Source: Thermoplasmata archaeon (GTDB lineage Archaea; Thermoplasmatota; Thermoplasmata; Lutacidiplasmatales; UBA184). Taken from it: a DNA stretch of 64,000 nucleotides. The notes beneath the pieces were generated by a model. It saw only the letters and a list, made by a program, of their open reading frames with translations. It was not told the origin of the DNA and made no database searches. The DNA lies in assembly GCA_021819135.1 (NCBI GenBank), contig JAKASE010000004.1:62001-126000 (forward strand), in the 5' to 3' direction. Both the position numbers and the translations under genes were made by a program. Shown piece by piece: positions 45,731-54,240 of the stretch (its first letter is position 1; every line of letters begins with the position of its first letter).

Positions 45731-47218
45731 TCAGTACCGGGCGACCGTCGGATCGACGCGGTCGGACCAGGCGTTGATGCCGCCCTTCAGGTTGCGGACG
45801 TGCTGGAAACCGAGGTCGAGGAGGAGCCGGGTCGACTGCGCCGACCGGGCGCCCGACGAACAGACGAGCACGACCTCGCGGGCCCGGGTGATCTCGTCGA
45901 CGCGCTCGGCGAGCTCCGCGCGCGGGATCAGCACGGCGCCCGGGATCGCCGAGATCGCGAGCTCCTGGGGCTCCCGAACGTCCACCACGAGCGGCGGGTC
46001 GTCGCCCTTGAGCGCGGCGGCGAGCTCTTCGGGCTCGATCGTCGGCACCCCCCCGGCGCCGGCCGCCTCCTCCCCCGCGCCGGGGACGCCGCAGAACGCC
46101 GGATAGTCGATCAGGCCCTTCTGGGTCGCCTCGGCCGAGCAGAGGACGCAGTGGGGGTTCTTGCGGAGCGTGAGCTCCCGGAACGTGAGACCGAGTGCGT
46201 CGAACAGGAGGAGACGACCGATCAGCGGATCGCCCTGGCCGAGCAGGAGCTTCACCGTCTCGGTCGCCTGCAGGACGCCCACGAGCCCGGGCAGGACACC
46301 GAGGACCCCGGCCTCCGCGCACGACGGGACGAGGTCCGCCGGCGGCGGCTCTGGGTACAGGCAGCGGTAGCATGGCCCCCGCCGGGCGTCGAAGACGCTC
46401 ACCTGTCCCTCGAACCGGTAGATCGATCCGTAGACGTTCGGCTTCCCGAGGAGCACCGCTGCGTCGTTCACGAGGTAGCGGGTCGGGAAGTTGTCGGTCC
46501 CGTCCACGACCACATCGTACGGCCGCAGGATCTCGAGGGCGTTGTCGGCGGTGAGGCGCTCCTCGTGGGGGATGACCCGGACCCCGGGGTTCAGCGCCTC
46601 GAGCCGCTCCTTCGCGGCCAGGAGCTTCGGCCGGCCGACGTCCCGGGTCGTGTAGAGGACCTGGCGCTGGAGGTTCGAGAGGTCGACCGCGTCGAACTCC
46701 ACGAGGCCGAGCGTGCCGACCCCGGCGGCGGCGAGGTAGAGGGCCGCGGGCGAGCCCAACCCTCCGGCCCCCACGAGGAGAACCTTGGCATGCTTGAGCC
46801 TCCGCTGGCCCACGACTCCCACCTCCGGCAACAGAAGGTGGCGGCTGTACCGCCGCAGCTCCTCCGAGGAGAAGCGCTCGGGCGGCTCAGGGGCGGAACC
46901 GCTCCGGTCGAGCCCGGCCGGGCTCGGGGGGGCCGCGGTGGAACCCCCGGCGATCGCCGGGACGATCGACACGACGTCGCCTTCCCGCACCGGGGTCGCC
47001 TCCCGCTCGAGGTAGCGGACATCCTCGTCGTTGAGATAGACGGTCACGAAGCTGCGGAGCCGACCGTCGGGGGTGAATAGGTGGCGGCGGAGCTCCGGGT
47101 GCTCGTGCGTGAGCTCCTCGACGAGCCCGCCGACCGTTGTCGCCTCGAGCGCCAGCTCGGCCTTGCCGCCGGTGAACGTGCGCAGAGGGGTCGGGACCTT
47201 GACCGTAGCCTTCGACAT
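45731..47218 (-). CDS. MoaD/ThiS-MoeB-rhodanese triple fusion (CysO-MoeZ-like)
   Basis: 495 residues from ATG 47218 with three domains in order. Residues 1-92 are a ubiquitin-like sulfur carrier of the ThiS/MoaD/CysO type ending 'VPAIAGG'. After a ~20-residue Pro/Ser linker, residues ~114-370 are an E1-like adenylyltransferase with G-A-G-G-L-G-S (150-156) and zinc pairs C-Y-R-C and C-V-L-C. Residues ~395-495 are a rhodanese with active loop C-S-S-G-A-R-S. Known relatives: the E1 adenylates a carrier's C-terminal Gly-Gly and the rhodanese passes sulfur to give a thiocarboxylate. Here the Gly-Gly (91-92) is internal, so activation would need cleavage after it. The JAMM protease gene lies 26 bases upstream and cysM just before that, in one operon. 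Confidence 0.93.
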   Translation of the reverse strand: MSKATVKVPTPLRTFTGGKAELALEATTVGGLVEELTHEHPELRRHLFTPDGRLRSFVTVYLNDEDVRYLEREATPVREGDVVSIVPAIAGGSTAAPPSPAGLDRSGSAPEPPERFSSEELRRYSRHLLLPEVGVVGQRRLKHAKVLLVGAGGLGSPAALYLAAAGVGTLGLVEFDAVDLSNLQRQVLYTTRDVGRPKLLAAKERLEALNPGVRVIPHEERLTADNALEILRPYDVVVDGTDNFPTRYLVNDAAVLLGKPNVYGSIYRFEGQVSVFDARRGPCYRCLYPEPPPADLVPSCAEAGVLGVLPGLVGVLQATETVKLLLGQGDPLIGRLLLFDALGLTFRELTLRKNPHCVLCSAEATQKGLIDYPAFCGVPGAGEEAAGAGGVPTIEPEELAAALKGDDPPLVVDVREPQELAISAIPGAVLIPRAELAERVDEITRAREVVLVCSSGARSAQSTRLLLDLGFQHVRNLKGGINAWSDRVDPTVARY

Positions 47219-47244
47219 TTCGCCGTACTCCTGCGGTGCCGCTC

Positions 47245-47730
47245 TTAGCGGCTCGCTAACCCCCGGGCCACCGGGACTCCCGCCGGTGGGGCGGTTTCCG
47301 TAACGAGAGGGACCTCCGAGAACGTGCCCGAATCGGGGTCGAGCTCGAACGCCCGGGTATCCCCGACCGCCTTCTCGGTGACGCCGAGGACGATGTAGGT
47401 GTACCACGGCCAAGCGTGGTCCTGGTCGTACTGCGACGGGCGCGCCGGGTGGTCGGGATGCGAGTGATAGAACCCTGCGACGACCCGCCCGGACGGCTCG
47501 AGCGTATGCTCCAGGGCCCGGAGCTCGCCGGGTCGGACGAGGAACCGCCGGCGCCGTTCCCCCTCGAACTCGTTCGGGACCGGGACGACGTCGAGGATGG
47601 TCCGGAGCTGCGACGGGTCCGACGGATCGGGTTCCGCGATGAGGAATCCGCAGCACTCCTCCGGATAGGCGCGGCGGGCGTGCTCGGCCATCGCCGCCTT
47701 CAGCGCCCCCGATACCGCGATCGACCTCAT
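47245..47730 (-). CDS. JAMM/MPN+ metalloprotease (Mec-like)
   Basis: 161 residues. The JAMM zinc site is intact: Glu in 'YPEECCGF' (24/25), H89-S-H91-P, then S99 and D102 in 'HPARPSQYD'. M. tuberculosis Mec releases cysteine from CysO-Cys, and archaeal homologues remove SAMP modifiers. Here the gene sits between cysM and a CysO-like fusion, matching the Mec arrangement. Its ATG overlaps the cysM stop (ATGA). It may also cut the Gly-Gly/Ser bond in the neighbouring fusion; that part is inference. Confidence 0.92.
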   Translation of the reverse strand: MRSIAVSGALKAAMAEHARRAYPEECCGFLIAEPDPSDPSQLRTILDVVPVPNEFEGERRRRFLVRPGELRALEHTLEPSGRVVAGFYHSHPDHPARPSQYDQDHAWPWYTYIVLGVTEKAVGDTRAFELDPDSGTFSEVPLVTETAPPAGVPVARGLASR

Positions 47731-48698
47731 GCGTCCTCCGCCGGGGCCGGGCCGTGCCCCGCATCGGGCAGGACCGTGACGATCACCGCGCCTGGCGCGG
47801 TGAGCCCGACGCCGATAGAGGCCGAGACCGCCGCCGCGGCCGACATCCCCACCTCGAGCCCCTCGAGGCGGGCGAGCCGCCCGCGCATCGTCTCGGCCTC
47901 CTCGGTCTCCACCCGAACCGTGCGGTCGACGATGCGCTCGTCGTAGGTCGACGGGCGCAGGGCGGTCGGCAGGTGCTTCAGGCCCTCGAGGCCGTGCATC
48001 GGGCCCGCGGGCTCCACGCCGACCACCGCGAGCGAGGCGCGCTGCTCCTTGAGGTAGCGGCCGGTCCCCGTGATGGTCCCGCCGGTCCCGACGCCCGCCA
48101 CGAAATGCGTTACGCGGCCGCCGCTCTGGTGCCAGATCTCCGGACCCGTCGAGGCGTAGTGGGCATCCGGGTTGGCCGGGTTGTTGTACTGGTCGGAGTA
48201 GAAGTAGTGCAGGGGGTCCTCGGTGGCGCGCCGTCGGGCCTCGCGCTGCGAACCGTCGGTCGACTCGAGCGGGTCGGTGAAGACGAGACGGGCCCCGAAG
48301 GCCCGCAGTCGCTCTAGCTGGCTCGGATGGGCATTGCGCGGAAGTACGATCTCGACCCCGAACCCGAGCCGGGCCCCGAGCATGGCGTACGCCACCGCCG
48401 TGTTCCCACTGGAGGCGTCGATCAGCGTCCGGCCCGCGTCGAGCCGGCCCTCCGCGATCGCCTGTCGGACGATCCCGAACGCCGCCCGATCCTTGACCGA
48501 GCCGGTAGGGTTCAGGAACTCCGCCTTGGCCCAGAGCTCGAACTCGCCGCCCGCGGACTCGACCAACCGTGACAGCGGCACGAGGGGAGTCCCCCCGACC
48601 GAGCGCAGGAACGGGTCATCGACCCGGAGCGGACGGGCCGCCGGCCCGCTCCCGGCGTCGACGCCCGGGCCGAGCATGCGGGGATCCGTAGCCACCAT
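47727..48698 (-). CDS. cysM: Cysteine synthase (CysM-type)
   Basis: 323 residues. A PLP enzyme of the O-acetylserine/O-phosphoserine sulfhydrylase family: PLP Lys in 'NPTGSVKDRAAFG', substrate loop 'SSGNTAVAYAM', and phosphate-binding 'GVGTGGTITGTG'. The start is ATG 48698 because GGGAGGG lies 6-7 bases before it; an ATG at 48764 would overlap the regulator gene. Next to a JAMM protease and sulfur carrier, it probably uses a protein thiocarboxylate instead of free sulfide, as M. tuberculosis CysM does with O-phosphoserine. Use of OPS rather than OAS is not proven by sequence. Confidence 0.92.
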   Translation of the reverse strand: MVATDPRMLGPGVDAGSGPAARPLRVDDPFLRSVGGTPLVPLSRLVESAGGEFELWAKAEFLNPTGSVKDRAAFGIVRQAIAEGRLDAGRTLIDASSGNTAVAYAMLGARLGFGVEIVLPRNAHPSQLERLRAFGARLVFTDPLESTDGSQREARRRATEDPLHYFYSDQYNNPANPDAHYASTGPEIWHQSGGRVTHFVAGVGTGGTITGTGRYLKEQRASLAVVGVEPAGPMHGLEGLKHLPTALRPSTYDERIVDRTVRVETEEAETMRGRLARLEGLEVGMSAAAAVSASIGVGLTAPGAVIVTVLPDAGHGPAPAEDA

Positions 48699-48741: not shown

Positions 48742-49470
48742 CTACTCGGCGTGAGCACCGCCATACGACGGTCGACGCGCGGTCGGCTTCGCTTCCGGCG
48801 GCGCGAAGGAGGACGGGACACCGGCGAGCAGCGGCACGAGGTGCGTGCACCGGAAGCCGCCGCGGCCGATCGAGTCCTGGAGGTCGACCCCGACCTGTCC
48901 GAGCAGCGATTCGGTGAGATGCTTATCGAAGACGTCGCAGAGCAGGTACGGATGCGACAGCGCGCTGTGCCGGAAGACGCAGTTCGTGCGGATGACGCGG
49001 AGCGTCCCGTCGTCCATCTTCTCGGCGGTGCACCGGAAGCCGAGGCGGTTCAGCGCCGCGACGAGGTTCCGGACGCGTGCCTCGGGCGTGCCGCCCTTCG
49101 GGATCTCCTTCGCCACGACGGCGGCCATGCGGCGCGCCGACTGCGCGAAGAGCGCGCTCACGTACCCCTCCCCCTCGCGGTCGAGGAGCTCGTTGACGAC
49201 CGTGTCGAGGATGAGGTCGTACTTCTTCGGGAAGAGGTCCTGGCCGAGACTGGTCAGGGTGTAACGCTTGCGCGGACGCCCGACCCCTTCCCGACGGAAC
49301 GTGGCCGAGACGAGTCCCCGCTCCTCCATCCGGTCGAGATGACCGCGGGCCGCGCTCTCCTGGATCCCGAACTTCTGCGCGAGGTCCTTCGCCGTGCGGG
49401 GAGCGACGGCGAGCTCCTCGAGGATCTGGCCCCGTGTGCCTTCCAGCAGCTCCTCCGATGCGACCGTCAT
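48742..49470 (-). CDS. SufR-like winged-helix transcription regulator
   Basis: 242 residues from ATG 49470. An N-terminal winged helix-turn-helix (~residues 12-75, 'TRGQILEELAVAPRTAKDLAQ') is followed by a sensor domain with Cys at 147, 164, 178 and 208. The pattern C164-x13-C178 in 'NCVFRHSALSHPYLLC' plus C208 resembles the [4Fe-4S] ligands of bacterial SufR, which represses suf genes when loaded with a cluster. It is divergent from sufC, with 86 bases between, and is first gene of the cysM-JAMM-fusion operon. So it likely controls both sides. Confidence 0.85.
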   Translation of the reverse strand: MTVASEELLEGTRGQILEELAVAPRTAKDLAQKFGIQESAARGHLDRMEERGLVSATFRREGVGRPRKRYTLTSLGQDLFPKKYDLILDTVVNELLDREGEGYVSALFAQSARRMAAVVAKEIPKGGTPEARVRNLVAALNRLGFRCTAEKMDDGTLRVIRTNCVFRHSALSHPYLLCDVFDKHLTESLLGQVGVDLQDSIGRGGFRCTHLVPLLAGVPSSFAPPEAKPTARRPSYGGAHAE

Positions 49471-49556
49471 CGCCGACCGTACTCCCGGACCGAAGGGTCC
49501 TCGAAATTTACACACCACGCCATGCTTAAATAACGGTATCGGCTCGTATGGGACCG
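49471..49556. promoter_or_regulatory. Divergent sufR/sufC promoter region
   Basis: Rightward: CTTAAATAA (49525-49533), centred 28 bases before ATG 49557. Leftward: GTAAATTTC (about 49503-49511), ~37 bases before ATG 49470. Between the boxes lies TTTACACACCACGCCATG; its TTTACACAC also begins the inverted repeat in the sufD promoter (56042-56050). It may be a half-site for the neighbouring regulator. Confidence 0.55.
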
Positions 49557-50333
49557 ATGACGGAGCCCAGCGCACCGAAGCAGCACTCCCTCGTGGTCGA
49601 GGACTTCCACGCGGAGGTCGCCGGCAAGGAGATCCTCCGGGGGGTCAACCTGACCCTCAAGAGCGGGGAACTGACCGCGCTGATGGGCCCGAACGGATCC
49701 GGCAAGAGCACCCTCGCCTACGCCCTCATGGGACACCCGAAGTACAAGGTGACCCGCGGACGGGCGCTCCTCGACGGGCAGGACCTCCTCGCGCTGAGCG
49801 TCGACAAGCGGGCCCGGGCGGGCCTCTTCCTCGGGTTCCAGTATCCGCAGGAGATCTCCGGCCTCTCCCTCTCGAAGTTCCTCTGGACCTCCTACATGCA
49901 GAGCCACACCGCCGAGACGGCGGACACCGCCGCGTACGACCGGGAGCTGCAGACGCACCTCGGGTTCCTCGGGATGGATTCGGCGCTGCTGAAGCGGTCC
50001 CTCAACGAGGGGTTCTCGGGCGGGGAGAAGAAGCGCGTAGAGGTCCTCCAGATGGCGACGCTCCACCCGATCTTTGCGATCCTCGACGAGCCGGACTCCG
50101 GTCTCGACATCGACGCGGTGCGCGCCGTCGGGGAGACGGTCGCGAAGCTGCACCGGCCCGACGCGGGGATCCTGTTGATCACGCACTACCAGCGGATCCT
50201 GAAGTACGTGAAGCCGGACCGCGTGCACGTCATGGTCGACGGCGTCATCGCCCGGTCGGGCGGGCGCGAGCTCGCCGAAGAGCTCGAAGCGAAGGGGTAC
50301 GACTTCGTTCGGCCGGCTCAAGCGACTGCCTAA
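49557..50333 (+). CDS. sufC: SufC Fe-S assembly ATPase
   Basis: 258 residues from ATG 49557, preferred over ATG 49548 because of the TATA spacing. ABC-type ATPase that drives the SufBCD scaffold: Walker A G-P-N-G-S-G-K-S-T, 'FQYPQEISGLSLSKFL', signature 'FSGGEKKRVEVLQM' and Walker B 'FAILDEPDSGLDIDAV' are all SufC-typical, with the His switch in 'LITHYQRIL'. sufS follows in 43 bases and sufB after that. sufD is absent from this operon and lies convergent to sufB. Confidence 0.97.
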   Translation: MTEPSAPKQHSLVVEDFHAEVAGKEILRGVNLTLKSGELTALMGPNGSGKSTLAYALMGHPKYKVTRGRALLDGQDLLALSVDKRARAGLFLGFQYPQEISGLSLSKFLWTSYMQSHTAETADTAAYDRELQTHLGFLGMDSALLKRSLNEGFSGGEKKRVEVLQMATLHPIFAILDEPDSGLDIDAVRAVGETVAKLHRPDAGILLITHYQRILKYVKPDRVHVMVDGVIARSGGRELAEELEAKGYDFVRPAQATA

Positions 50334-51719: not shown

Positions 51720-51740
51720 CTTATTTAAATACATCAATGT
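51720..51740 (+). promoter_or_regulatory. sufB promoter: TATA box plus inverted repeat
   Basis: TTATTTAAATA (51720-51730) is followed directly by ACAT-CA-ATGT (51731-51740), an inverted repeat with the same CA spacer as the longer repeat in the sufD promoter. Transcription should begin near 51752, so the repeat lies between TATA box and start site. Confidence 0.55.
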
Positions 51741-51762
51741 GATGGAATTATTCGAGGTCGAT

Positions 51763-54240
51763 ATGGCTCAGGCGGGCGAGATCACTCCTCTCGATTACAC
51801 GCGGTACGACTTCAAAAATCCCGAAACGTACCGACTGCGGATCCCGAAGGGTCTGAGCCGCGACGTCGTCACGCAGATCTCGAAGTTCAAGGACGAGCCG
51901 ACGTGGATGCTCGAGTACCGGCTTCGGGCGTACGATCATTTCGTCGAACGCCCAATGCCCGACTGGGGCCCCGACCTTGGTGATATCGACTTCGACTCCT
52001 ACACGTACTACGCGAACCCGCTGCTCGAGGGCGAGACGAAGCGGAAGTGGGAGGACCTTCCCGACGACATCAAGAACACGTTCGAGAAGCTCGGCATCCC
52101 GAAGGCCGAGCGCGAGTACTTCGGCGGGGTCGGCGCCCAGTACGACAGCGGTACGGTCTACCACAAGATCCGCGAGGACCTCGTCAAGAAGGGCGTCGTC
52201 TTTTGCGACACCGACACCGCGGTGAAGGAGCACCCCGACATCGTCCGCAAGTACTTCGGGAAGATCGTCCCGTACAACGACAACAAGTTCTCGGCGCTCA
52301 ACAGCGCGGTCTGGTCCGGCGGCAGCTTCGTTTACGTTCCGCCCGGGGTCGACGCGGGCATCCCCCTCCAGGCGTACTTCCGTATCAACGCGAAGAACGT
52401 GGGGCAGTTCGAGCGTACCCTGATCATCGCCGACCAGGGCGCGAAGGTGCACTATATTGAGGGATGTGGTCCCGCCGGCGAAGAGATTCTGGTCGGCGAC
52501 CGGGTAACCCCTATCGAACAGATCGCCGTGGGCCAGCGGGTCCTCAATAGCGACGGTGTCGAGACAACTGTTGAGAAGACCATGGTTCGCCGGTACGACG
52601 GCGATCTCGTTGGAGTCCACCCTGCTTCGCCCGGGAACGCGTTCCAACTCACGCCCGAGCACCCGGTTCTCTGCATTCCTCGTCGGAAGGTGTCCAAGGG
52701 TCAGTATGGGTTCCAGAGCTACGATATTCTAGATCATGAGAGGATACAGACCATCACACCCGAGTTCGTGCCTGCGGGTGAACTGCACCCGGGCGACTTC
52801 CTTGTCTACCCGATCAATAAGACGACGCGCGATGACTCGTCGTTTACCGATGCCACGATGGTCGTGCTCGGGTACTATCTTGCCGAGGGTTGTGTCCAGC
52901 TGATTAACGAGTGTAAGGCCGTCACGTTCACCTTCCACATCGACGAGACCGAGTACGTTGAGGAACTCAGCAAGGCGATCACGGAACTCACGGGAAAGGT
53001 TCCGTGGAAGAACCCGCAGCCGGAGCGCCATGCTGTCACCGTAGGTGTGTATTCTGAGGCGCTCTACGAACGCTGCCTAGAGCATGCCGGAAAGTACGCC
53101 GAAGCGAAGGCGCTCAGCAAGGCGGTGATGGATCTCCCTCCTGCGAAGCAGAGGTCCCTGCTCCGATGCTACTACAACGGCGACGGAAACGTCTCGCAGA
53201 TGCACGGGACCGTCCTTCGGGTCATGACCGTGTCACGGCAGCTGGCGTTCCAGGTCCAGGAACTTCAGGCGCGCCAAGGTTTCTTCGCCACGATTCGCAT
53301 CCGCGAGCCGTTCGAAGAAACGATGAAGGACGGACGCAGGATCTCTCACCGTCGGATGTATACCATCTACCACCGGCCAAACCGGCATGTTCGGACGGTC
53401 ATTCGCCGGGGCGATTCCTTCTTGGTCCCGATCCGAGAAATGTCTTGGACGCCTTACCACGGTGATGTCTACAACTTCCACGTCGCTGGTGAGAACAACA
53501 CCTACCTCGTCAAGGGGTTCTCGGTGCACAACTGCACCGCGCCCATCTACTCGACCGATTCGCTCCACGCGGCCGTGGTGGAGGTCGTCGCCGAGCCTCA
53601 CGCCAAGGTTCGGTACACGACCGTGCAGAACTGGTCGAAGAACGTGTACAACCTCGTAACAAAGCGGGCCGTCGCCTACGAGGACGCCCTCGTCGAGTGG
53701 GTCGACGGGAACATGGGCTCGAAGGTGACGATGAAGTATCCGTCGGTCTACCTCCGGGGCCGCCGGGCACGCGCCGACATCCTGTCGGTGGCGTTTGCGA
53801 GCCAGGGCCAGATCATCGACTCGGGGGCCAAGGCGGTGCATTCTGCCCCGGACACCTCGAGCAAGATCATCTCGAAGTCGATCGCCATCCGTGGTGGCCA
53901 GACAAGCTACCGCGGTCTCCTCCACGTGGCGCCGGGAGCGACGGGCGTGAAGGCCGCCGTCCGATGCGACGCGCTCCTCCCTGATGAGAGCGGACGCTCC
54001 GACACGTACCCGTACAACGAGATCCACGAGGAGGACGCGACGATCACCCACGAGGCGGTCGTCGGGAAGATCGGCGAGGAGCAGATCTTCTACCTCATGA
54101 GCCGGGGCCTCTCCGAGTCGGATGCGATCCATCTGATCCTCATGGGATTCCTCGCCGAGTTCTCGAAGGAGCTCCCCGTCGACTACGCCCTCGAGCTCAA
54201 CCGCCTGATCCAGCTCGAGATGGCCGGCGCGGTCGGGTAG
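51763..54240 (+). CDS. sufB: SufB Fe-S scaffold protein, intein-containing
   Basis: 825 residues as translated, 469 after intein removal, the usual SufB length. ATG 51763 is chosen since the TATA box would place the transcript start at ~51752; ATG 51742 lies upstream of it. The N-extein has 'YFGGVGAQYDSGTVYHKI' and ends Y-I-E-G; the C-extein begins C-T-A-P-I-Y-S-T-D-S, the conserved SufB site, and the end has the 'SRGLSESDAIHLILMGF' helix. SufB forms the SufBCD scaffold for [4Fe-4S] assembly. It has its own promoter despite following sufC-sufS. Confidence 0.97.
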   Translation: MAQAGEITPLDYTRYDFKNPETYRLRIPKGLSRDVVTQISKFKDEPTWMLEYRLRAYDHFVERPMPDWGPDLGDIDFDSYTYYANPLLEGETKRKWEDLPDDIKNTFEKLGIPKAEREYFGGVGAQYDSGTVYHKIREDLVKKGVVFCDTDTAVKEHPDIVRKYFGKIVPYNDNKFSALNSAVWSGGSFVYVPPGVDAGIPLQAYFRINAKNVGQFERTLIIADQGAKVHYIEGCGPAGEEILVGDRVTPIEQIAVGQRVLNSDGVETTVEKTMVRRYDGDLVGVHPASPGNAFQLTPEHPVLCIPRRKVSKGQYGFQSYDILDHERIQTITPEFVPAGELHPGDFLVYPINKTTRDDSSFTDATMVVLGYYLAEGCVQLINECKAVTFTFHIDETEYVEELSKAITELTGKVPWKNPQPERHAVTVGVYSEALYERCLEHAGKYAEAKALSKAVMDLPPAKQRSLLRCYYNGDGNVSQMHGTVLRVMTVSRQLAFQVQELQARQGFFATIRIREPFEETMKDGRRISHRRMYTIYHRPNRHVRTVIRRGDSFLVPIREMSWTPYHGDVYNFHVAGENNTYLVKGFSVHNCTAPIYSTDSLHAAVVEVVAEPHAKVRYTTVQNWSKNVYNLVTKRAVAYEDALVEWVDGNMGSKVTMKYPSVYLRGRRARADILSVAFASQGQIIDSGAKAVHSAPDTSSKIISKSIAIRGGQTSYRGLLHVAPGATGVKAAVRCDALLPDESGRSDTYPYNEIHEEDATITHEAVVGKIGEEQIFYLMSRGLSESDAIHLILMGFLAEFSKELPVDYALELNRLIQLEMAGAVG
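52465..53532 (+). mobile_element. SufB intein with DOD homing endonuclease
   Basis: 356 residues inserted between Gly234 and the Cys of C-T-A-P-I-Y-S, a recurring SufB insertion point. It starts with Cys ('CGPAGEEILVGDRV', block A), has 'LTPEHPVL' (block B), LAGLIDADG-type motifs 'LGYYLAEGC' and 'YYNGDGN', then 'GDVYNFHVAGENNTYLV' and ends H-N before the +1 Cys. All splicing residues are in place, so self-splicing should work. One 60-base line counted here (52861-52920) is 55% G+C against 68% in the N-extein line at 52321-52380, which suggests acquisition from elsewhere. Both endonuclease motifs look intact. Confidence 0.93.

Follow-up and report, generated by a model that had tools for sequence, protein, structure and literature searches.

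The window, as the whole stretch analyzed here is called, comprises 64,000 nucleotides of a Thermoplasmata archaeon (GCA_021819135.1, contig JAKASE010000004.1, positions 62,001 to 126,000 of the forward strand). On its minus strand, positions 45731-48698 hold a cysteine synthase, a JAMM protease, and a 495-residue protein in which a sulfur carrier, an E1-like enzyme and a rhodanese form one chain. Open reading frames and Pfam matches place the three genes in one operon. The CysM-like synthase (47727-48698; PALP domain, E 7.5e-68) lies in a frame that is open to 48821, with a likely start at 48698. Its stop codon overlaps the start of the JAMM gene (47245-47730, 161 residues; Prok-JAB, E 4.7e-21) in the sequence ATGA, and 26 bases separate the latter from the fusion gene (45731-47218). 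A first, sequence-only reading of this DNA had described a fusion with an internal Gly91-Gly92, an intact JAMM protease and a cysteine synthase in an operon, and open reading frames, Pfam and alignments confirm that description. It had also proposed that the JAMM protease frees the carrier by cutting after Gly92, a step for which the comparison of relatives presented here provides good support.

The fusion protein and its protease

The fusion is a single open reading frame, conserved in relatives, in which Pfam recognizes a ThiS domain (residues 6-92, E 4.7e-16), a ThiF domain (124-357, E 2.2e-82), and a rhodanese (396-486, E 3.6e-19). The carrier domain, of the ThiS/MoaD (CysO-like) type, spans residues 1-92 (46943-47218) and ends in P-x-x-A-G-G. 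Its final Gly91-Gly92 (46943-46948), after which the cut is proposed, thus closes the ThiS domain while lying inside the chain. The top-scoring solved carrier in the structure listing is chain 3dwg_C (93 residues, listed as a 9.5 kDa culture filtrate antigen), which we take to be CysO of M. tuberculosis. It aligns to residues 4-92 of the fusion, and because its last residue pairs with Gly92, the Gly-Gly is terminal there and internal here. Next comes a linker of variable length (residues 93-122, 46853-46942), the proposed start of a “propeptide”. The E1-like adenylyltransferase (ThiF/MoeB, residues 124-357, 46148-46849) follows, with paired CxxC motifs (C283/C286 and C357/C360, C360 sitting just past the end of the Pfam match), and then the rhodanese (residues 396-486, 45761-46033) with its presumed active-site Cys453. 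The four CxxC cysteines, C453, R458, S459 and the Gly-Gly are invariant across an alignment of 37 fusions.

An AlphaFold2 model built from 37 sequences has a mean predicted local distance difference test score (pLDDT) of 86.9 and a predicted template modeling score of 0.82. Carrier, E1 and rhodanese are well folded, and pLDDT falls below 50 at residues 91-112 and 385-387, so that the linker is predicted to be disordered from Gly91 onward, between folded domains. The 50 Foldseek matches listed are E1-type enzymes (such as Uba4, ThiF and MoeB), which confirm the center of the model only. The E1-rhodanese part passes the NCBI model for MoeB (PRK08762, 493.3 bits against a cut-off of 449). It has the same domain content as MoeZ and does not reach the cut-off of that model (PRK07878, 466.7 bits against 647). 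In the operon JAMM the catalytic motif is intact: E25, H89-S-H91-P, S99 and D102 are all invariant in an alignment of 47, the stretch from H89 to D102 being encoded at 47425-47466.

Masked Gly-Gly ends and the JAMM protease

A nearly full-length match to the fusion in a single open frame was found in 57 of 250 genomes of the class, and chance or an assembly artefact was rejected on that count. Matches of any kind at E 0.001 occur in 241 of the 250, a tally that includes plain E1 enzymes. GTDB contigs hold at least 595 relatives, the best 80 of which were kept. These span Acidobacteria, Gemmatimonadota, Chloroflexi, Ignavibacteria, Bacteroidota, Omnitrophota, Moritella, Shewanella and others, and a fusion confined to archaea was thereby rejected. 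They comprise both fused and separate forms, the fusion occurring in several Thermoplasmata families and many bacterial phyla. Plasmid records gave 464 with a match, only two of them with a single place covering 80% of the query. Because the named loci are the best 80 of at least 595 relatives, they lean toward close and fused ones. The 130 loci collected became 126 after four with an E1-rhodanese sequence identical to another were dropped. The 45 fused archaeal loci analyzed are 43 of the 57 full-length hits plus two named Thermoplasmata loci; the 14 other hits belong to families f11 and f25.

Loss of the Gly-Gly in relatives that keep the operon, a possibility raised by the sequence-only reading, was looked for and rejected, since all 77 fused proteins retain it. 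The residue after it is Ser or Ala in 64 of the 77, and 10-46 residues (median 23) separate it from the E1 motif R-Y-S-R-H. A carrier lies near the E1 gene in 106 of the 126 loci and is separate in 29 of these. We call a Gly-Gly masked when residues follow it. JAMM was present within the fetched stretch in 71 of the 77 fused loci, in 20 of 24 with a separate carrier running past its Gly-Gly, in one of five whose carrier ends exactly there (L148), and in none of the 20 without a carrier near the E1 gene, where for bacteria it was sought within that stretch only. This left ten masked loci. One (L005) has its JAMM on another contig of its genome (G142), and a search of the genomes of the other nine with PF14464 gave strong matches for L106, L108, L109, L126 (partial), L132 and L150. 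JAMM was accordingly set to present by hand for seven loci, and L087, L119 and L153 kept their status as loci without one. The corrected table has 98 masked loci with JAMM and three without, against one unmasked or carrier-less locus with JAMM and 24 without (Fisher p 1.8e-21 over 126 loci, relatedness ignored). When only rows with a carrier are used, the counts are 98/3 versus 1/4 (p 3.4e-5).

The same coupling is seen within the window's family. The fusion is found in 36 of its 45 searched genomes (as a fragment at a contig end in G152), and all 36 have the operon-type JAMM (PF14464), as do none of the other nine. Unfused E1-rhodanese was found in seven of those nine and not in G227 or G239; the latter is a weak case, since its genome is in fragments, 83% complete, and includes part of an operon-type synthase. 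The operon-type JAMM adjoins the fusion in 35 of the 36 genomes (cut by a contig end in G032) and lies on another contig in G142. Outside the family, PF14464 matches at E 1e-15 or better in 26 of 27 genomes, and in the exception, G031, the contig ends where L046 would place JAMM. In L046 and L047, both of family f11, JAMM lies about 4.5 kb past the end of the fusion gene, beyond a SufS-like gene, so the coupling holds although the two genes are not neighbors.

A second JAMM (L177, G000:C37:49900-51200) and its orthologues occur in 44 of the 45 family genomes. The copy in the window's genome shares 27% identity with the operon JAMM and 57-82% with its counterparts in 12 other family genomes, identities by which it is a distinct family. 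A stretch first taken as the second JAMM of G032 (L192) turned out to be of the operon type. The operon JAMM might act only in releasing cysteine, as Mec does, with the fusion cut by another protease, such as this second JAMM, or by itself. That would fit the synthase found in the stretch of 60 of the 71 fused loci with JAMM there, and the PF14464 matches, at least two per genome, of all 36 family members that carry the fusion. For MoaX, too, the accessible part of its report does not identify the protease responsible for the cut (PMC4326299). However, the second JAMM is retained in eight of the nine fusion-less family genomes (G233 gave no PF14464 match), whereas the operon type is found in none. 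Furthermore, in 10 of the 45 fused archaeal loci fusion and JAMM are maintained although the genome contains no operon-type synthase. JAMM is thus tied more tightly to the fusion than to the synthase, and the idea that it follows the synthase was rejected. We consider a purely Mec-like role for the operon JAMM unlikely.

In a careful archaeal tree of 52 rows (45 fused, seven not), fusion and JAMM share one distribution and both switch state six times, always at the same points. At least four of the switches of the fusion are required by supported branches, and all four independent pairs on such branches agree. A quick tree of all 126 loci has 18 changes between the fused and unfused states, of which six or more fall on supported branches.

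How carriers end when they are not fused is also informative. Among the seven unfused archaeal loci, the carrier ends in Gly-Gly in three (L035, L041 and L038, the last on the other strand about 2.5 kb away), and four have none in the stretch. Unfused carriers without an operon-type JAMM (these three and L143) stop exactly at the Gly-Gly. In L035 a TAA directly follows the Gly-Gly and the E1 frame restarts at a GTG, while in L041 the carrier and E1 frames overlap. SufR, sufC and sufS hold their places in L035, L036, L037 and L041, indicating that this is the same locus from which synthase and JAMM are missing. Conversely, bacterial separate carriers beside a JAMM run 1-14 residues past the Gly-Gly in 20 of 21 loci (L148 is the exception). 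As a control, paralogous carriers were taken from 14 archaeal genomes; all 21 resolved end in Gly-Gly with nothing after it, eight of them from five genomes that have the fusion (L070 gave no match). Several match the fused-carrier profile weakly, and Pfam ThiS accepts them. When split, tailed, fused and paralogous ends are compared, residues after the Gly-Gly, whether a few or about 400, go with JAMM. Related acidobacterial carriers (L096, L103, L112 and L123) have Cys/Arg-rich tails, ending for example in RCICR or RCACS, which are perhaps a signal of their own.

These ends bear on two further explanations. JAMM, synthase and fused carrier could be lost together as a gene block, leaving their coupling uninformative about processing. 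As such a block would predict, neither JAMM nor synthase is present in any of the seven unfused archaeal loci of the tree. Yet fusion and JAMM persist without the synthase in the ten archaeal loci, the splits fall exactly after the Gly-Gly, and separate bacterial carriers beside JAMM have short tails, all of which makes block loss very unlikely as a full account. Alternatively, the carrier domain might never be cut, serving instead as a docking or regulatory domain of an E1 that charges the cell's separate carriers. The fusion is indeed the only PF00899 (ThiF) match in the genome (91% complete), which encodes two further carriers ending in Gly-Gly, and its E1 probably charges those as well. 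The “self-contained” system of the sequence-only reading is for this reason doubtful. But a carrier that is never cut is hard to square with a Gly-Gly that is invariant in 77 fusions, starts a low-confidence linker, is the exact C-terminus of the unfused L035 and L041 carriers, and is tracked by JAMM when masked. We regard that arrangement as quite unlikely. Together, the conservation of the Gly-Gly, the joint presence and absence of JAMM, the exact splits, and the tailed carriers suggest that JAMM most likely cuts the fusion after Gly92.

The synthase and the genes around the operon

The synthase passes the PALP threshold and its core columns are conserved. Its best NCBIfam model is CysM (TIGR01138), at 295.6 bits with a cut-off of 394.2 that is not reached. 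The closest solved structures are cysteine synthase B or O-acetylserine sulfhydrylase B chains (2jc3, 2bhs, 2v03 and 2bht), presumably of the E. coli type, and the M. tuberculosis enzyme chains 3dwg_A and 3dki_A rank lower. The serine acetyltransferase profile TIGR01172 was run on 53 genomes, 45 of the family and eight outside. It found no match in 44 of the 45 family genomes, the window's included, while all control genomes matched at E 0.001 and 8 of the 14 scored over the cut-off. Outside the family, matches were weak and mostly partial in seven genomes, and one had none. The absence of matches fits a synthase that uses O-phosphoserine, as the M. tuberculosis pathway does (PMC3227635). The window's genome has four PGDH-like matches, all under the cut-off. 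The sole family match to TIGR01172 is in G221 (E 8.6e-52, 175 bits, under the curated cut-off of 210.65), a genome without fusion or operon-type JAMM. In L193 (G221:C4:317000-322000) this serine acetyltransferase-like match and one to cysteine synthase lie about 520 bases apart. The classical pathway seems to have taken the place of the operon there; G173, a near relative of G221, gave no TIGR01172 match.

What the freed carrier would be used for is a separate matter. It may mainly modify proteins, or donate sulfur for tRNA or molybdopterin, rather than serve cysteine synthesis. The ten fused archaeal loci without an operon-type synthase in the genome would fit such a use, as would the match of the carrier domain to the SAMP1 model (NF041918, under its cut-off) and the finding of no other E1 in the genome. 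On the other side stand the frequent company of the synthase (60 of 71 fused loci with JAMM) and the family genomes in which serine acetyltransferase found no match (44 of 45). A mainly non-cysteine role is possible, though we lean toward cysteine.

Upstream of the synthase, a point missed by the sequence-only reading, lies a SufR-like regulator on the same strand (48742-49575; TIGR02702, E 7.6e-12, under its cut-off), which is probably the first gene of the operon. The minus-strand set of regulator, synthase, JAMM and fusion, in that order, likely forms a single operon. Adjoining its upstream end, sufC, sufS and sufB point away from the SufR-like gene. Of 30 loci searched, 9 have a SufR-like gene 5′ of the E1 gene and co-oriented with it; four of these 9 are unfused. 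It is placed in the same way, between the operon site and the suf genes, in the unfused L035, L036, L037 and L041. That this placing is kept even in unfused relatives suggests a shared iron-sulfur control. Inside the SufB gene (51739-54240, plus strand) the frame runs through an insert that matches LAGLIDADG (471-528); because SufB parts match on either side, the insert looks like an intein.

A proposed carrier precursor and its precedents

The arrangement is best explained as a pro-carrier matured by JAMM, with its own E1 as the propeptide. The fusion would be made as a precursor, and the neighboring JAMM would hydrolyze the bond after Gly92, yielding a separate E1-rhodanese enzyme and a CysO-like carrier whose Gly-Gly end is free. 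The E1 would then adenylate the freed carrier, and the rhodanese would give sulfur as a persulfide on Cys453, converting the carrier into a thiocarboxylate. In genomes with the operon synthase, the thiocarboxylate would pass this sulfur to an activated serine, probably O-phosphoserine. By analogy with CysO, CysM and Mec, it is plausible that the same JAMM then frees cysteine from the Gly-Gly-cysteine adduct, in which case its two steps would be one reaction, a peptide bond cut after Gly-Gly. Domains, motifs, operon, conservation and co-occurrence are observed, as are the splits at the Gly-Gly and the missing serine acetyltransferase match; each chemical step is inferred. Taken as a whole, from the cut precursor to the charged carrier and to cysteine where the synthase is present, this is the best explanation, and we hold it with considerable confidence.

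Several results weigh against this explanation. PF14464 matches are only weak in the genomes of L087 (a short contig) and L153, and in that of the fused L119 the profile search gave no match. L148 has a JAMM although its carrier ends in Gly-Gly, and the stretch of L129 holds E1-rhodanese and synthase but no JAMM and no carrier. The archaeal pair test gives p 0.125, four pairs being unable to reach 0.05, and over all loci the paired test has few supported pairs and a median p of 0.125. The bootstrap of the archaeal tree is unsettled, with L035 and L042 on long branches. The joint lack of JAMM and synthase in the seven unfused archaeal loci means that the two may be lost as one block. Synthase and E1-rhodanese are both under the NCBI cut-offs for CysM and MoeZ. 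The ten fused loci without an operon-type synthase imply that cysteine is not the sole use, and since some synthase relative was found in all 72 genomes searched, another route to cysteine may exist. Finally, the accessible text of one paper says, with reference to earlier studies, that HvJAMM1 does not require the diglycine to cut linear fusions (PMC8832034), and that of another contrasts deletion variants for HvJAMM1 cleavage (PMC4443979).

If JAMM does mature the fusion, two of its roles, the maturation of ubiquitin-like proteins and the removal of attachments, would be united in one small metabolic operon that occurs across archaea and many bacterial phyla. A more speculative extension, which we think doubtful, is that the E1 is both the propeptide of its own substrate and itself an inactive precursor, with the uncut carrier blocking its site in cis. 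One JAMM cut would then switch on, at a 1:1 ratio, the only E1 found in the genome, and JAMM would control all sulfur-carrier chemistry before acting again in cysteine release. The natural split and fused forms offer a ready set for asking whether residues after the Gly-Gly make the protease necessary.

The nearest known system is the CysO-MoeZ-CysM-Mec pathway of M. tuberculosis. Like the operon described here, it combines a Gly-Gly carrier, an E1 with rhodanese, a pyridoxal phosphate-dependent synthase and a JAMM (PMC3227635), but CysO has a free Gly-Gly end, whereas here carrier and E1 share one chain. Operon class 4c of Iyer et al. (2006) likewise gathers ThiS/MoaD, E1-rhodanese, JAB and cysteine synthase in one neighborhood, with the carrier as a separate gene instead of a fused one; in its accessible part, the account mentions neither a carrier-E1-rhodanese fusion nor a role for residues after the Gly-Gly (PMC1779556). 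A 2024 survey of archaeal fusions includes MoaD-MoeB-rhodanese proteins (cluster 356.3, mainly from unclassified Euryarchaeota and Poseidoniales), suggests their transfer from Acidobacteria, and says of MoaD-MoaE that the carrier end must be freed (PMC11237513). By domain content these match the carrier, E1 and rhodanese of the present protein; JAMM or synthase neighbors, the Gly-Gly, and cleavage are not mentioned for the cluster in the accessible text. The sequence-only reading, which knew of no description of the arrangement, had thus overstated novelty, as the fusion, the operon type and JAMM-cut carrier fusions (PMC4443979, PMC8832034) are all published. No paper was found that ties the fusion to its JAMM neighbor or proposes its cleavage, in a search outside which most subscription journals lie. 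The parts are known already; what appears new is their combination, with its evolutionary signature.

Other precedents are fused or processed carriers. In a Thaumarchaeota fusion, Ubl-E1-TBP, no rhodanese is listed and no link to JAMM or cysteine synthase is stated in the accessible text (PMC2948915). Like the fusion here, it sets a ubiquitin-like domain ahead of an E1 in archaea. The report in question is presumably that of Makarova and Koonin (2010). In the pairs QbsE/QbsD and HcyS/HcyD, a JAMM takes off a short tail after the Gly-Gly, one or two residues compared with about 400 here. The likeness extends to ubiquitin, whose precursors likewise carry a blocked end until a cut behind their Gly-Gly frees it, and archaeal Rpn11 is reported to process a ubiquitin precursor (PMC6043591). 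HvJAMM1 cleaves a linear SAMP1-MoaE fusion in cells, as its function requires (PMC4443979), DRJAMM cleaves MoaD-MoaE (PMC8832034), and MoaX is cut between Gly82 and Ser83 (PMC4326299). In these three the partner is MoaE, which takes the sulfur, whereas here it is the activating E1, and SAMP1-MoaE was engineered, unlike the natural fusion of the window. All of them are carrier fusions with an internal Gly-Gly, as here, and there cleavage is needed for activity. The present fusion, with an internal Gly-Gly joined to a partner domain and a JAMM in the same genome, thus has the layout of the linear fusions that JAMM proteases process.

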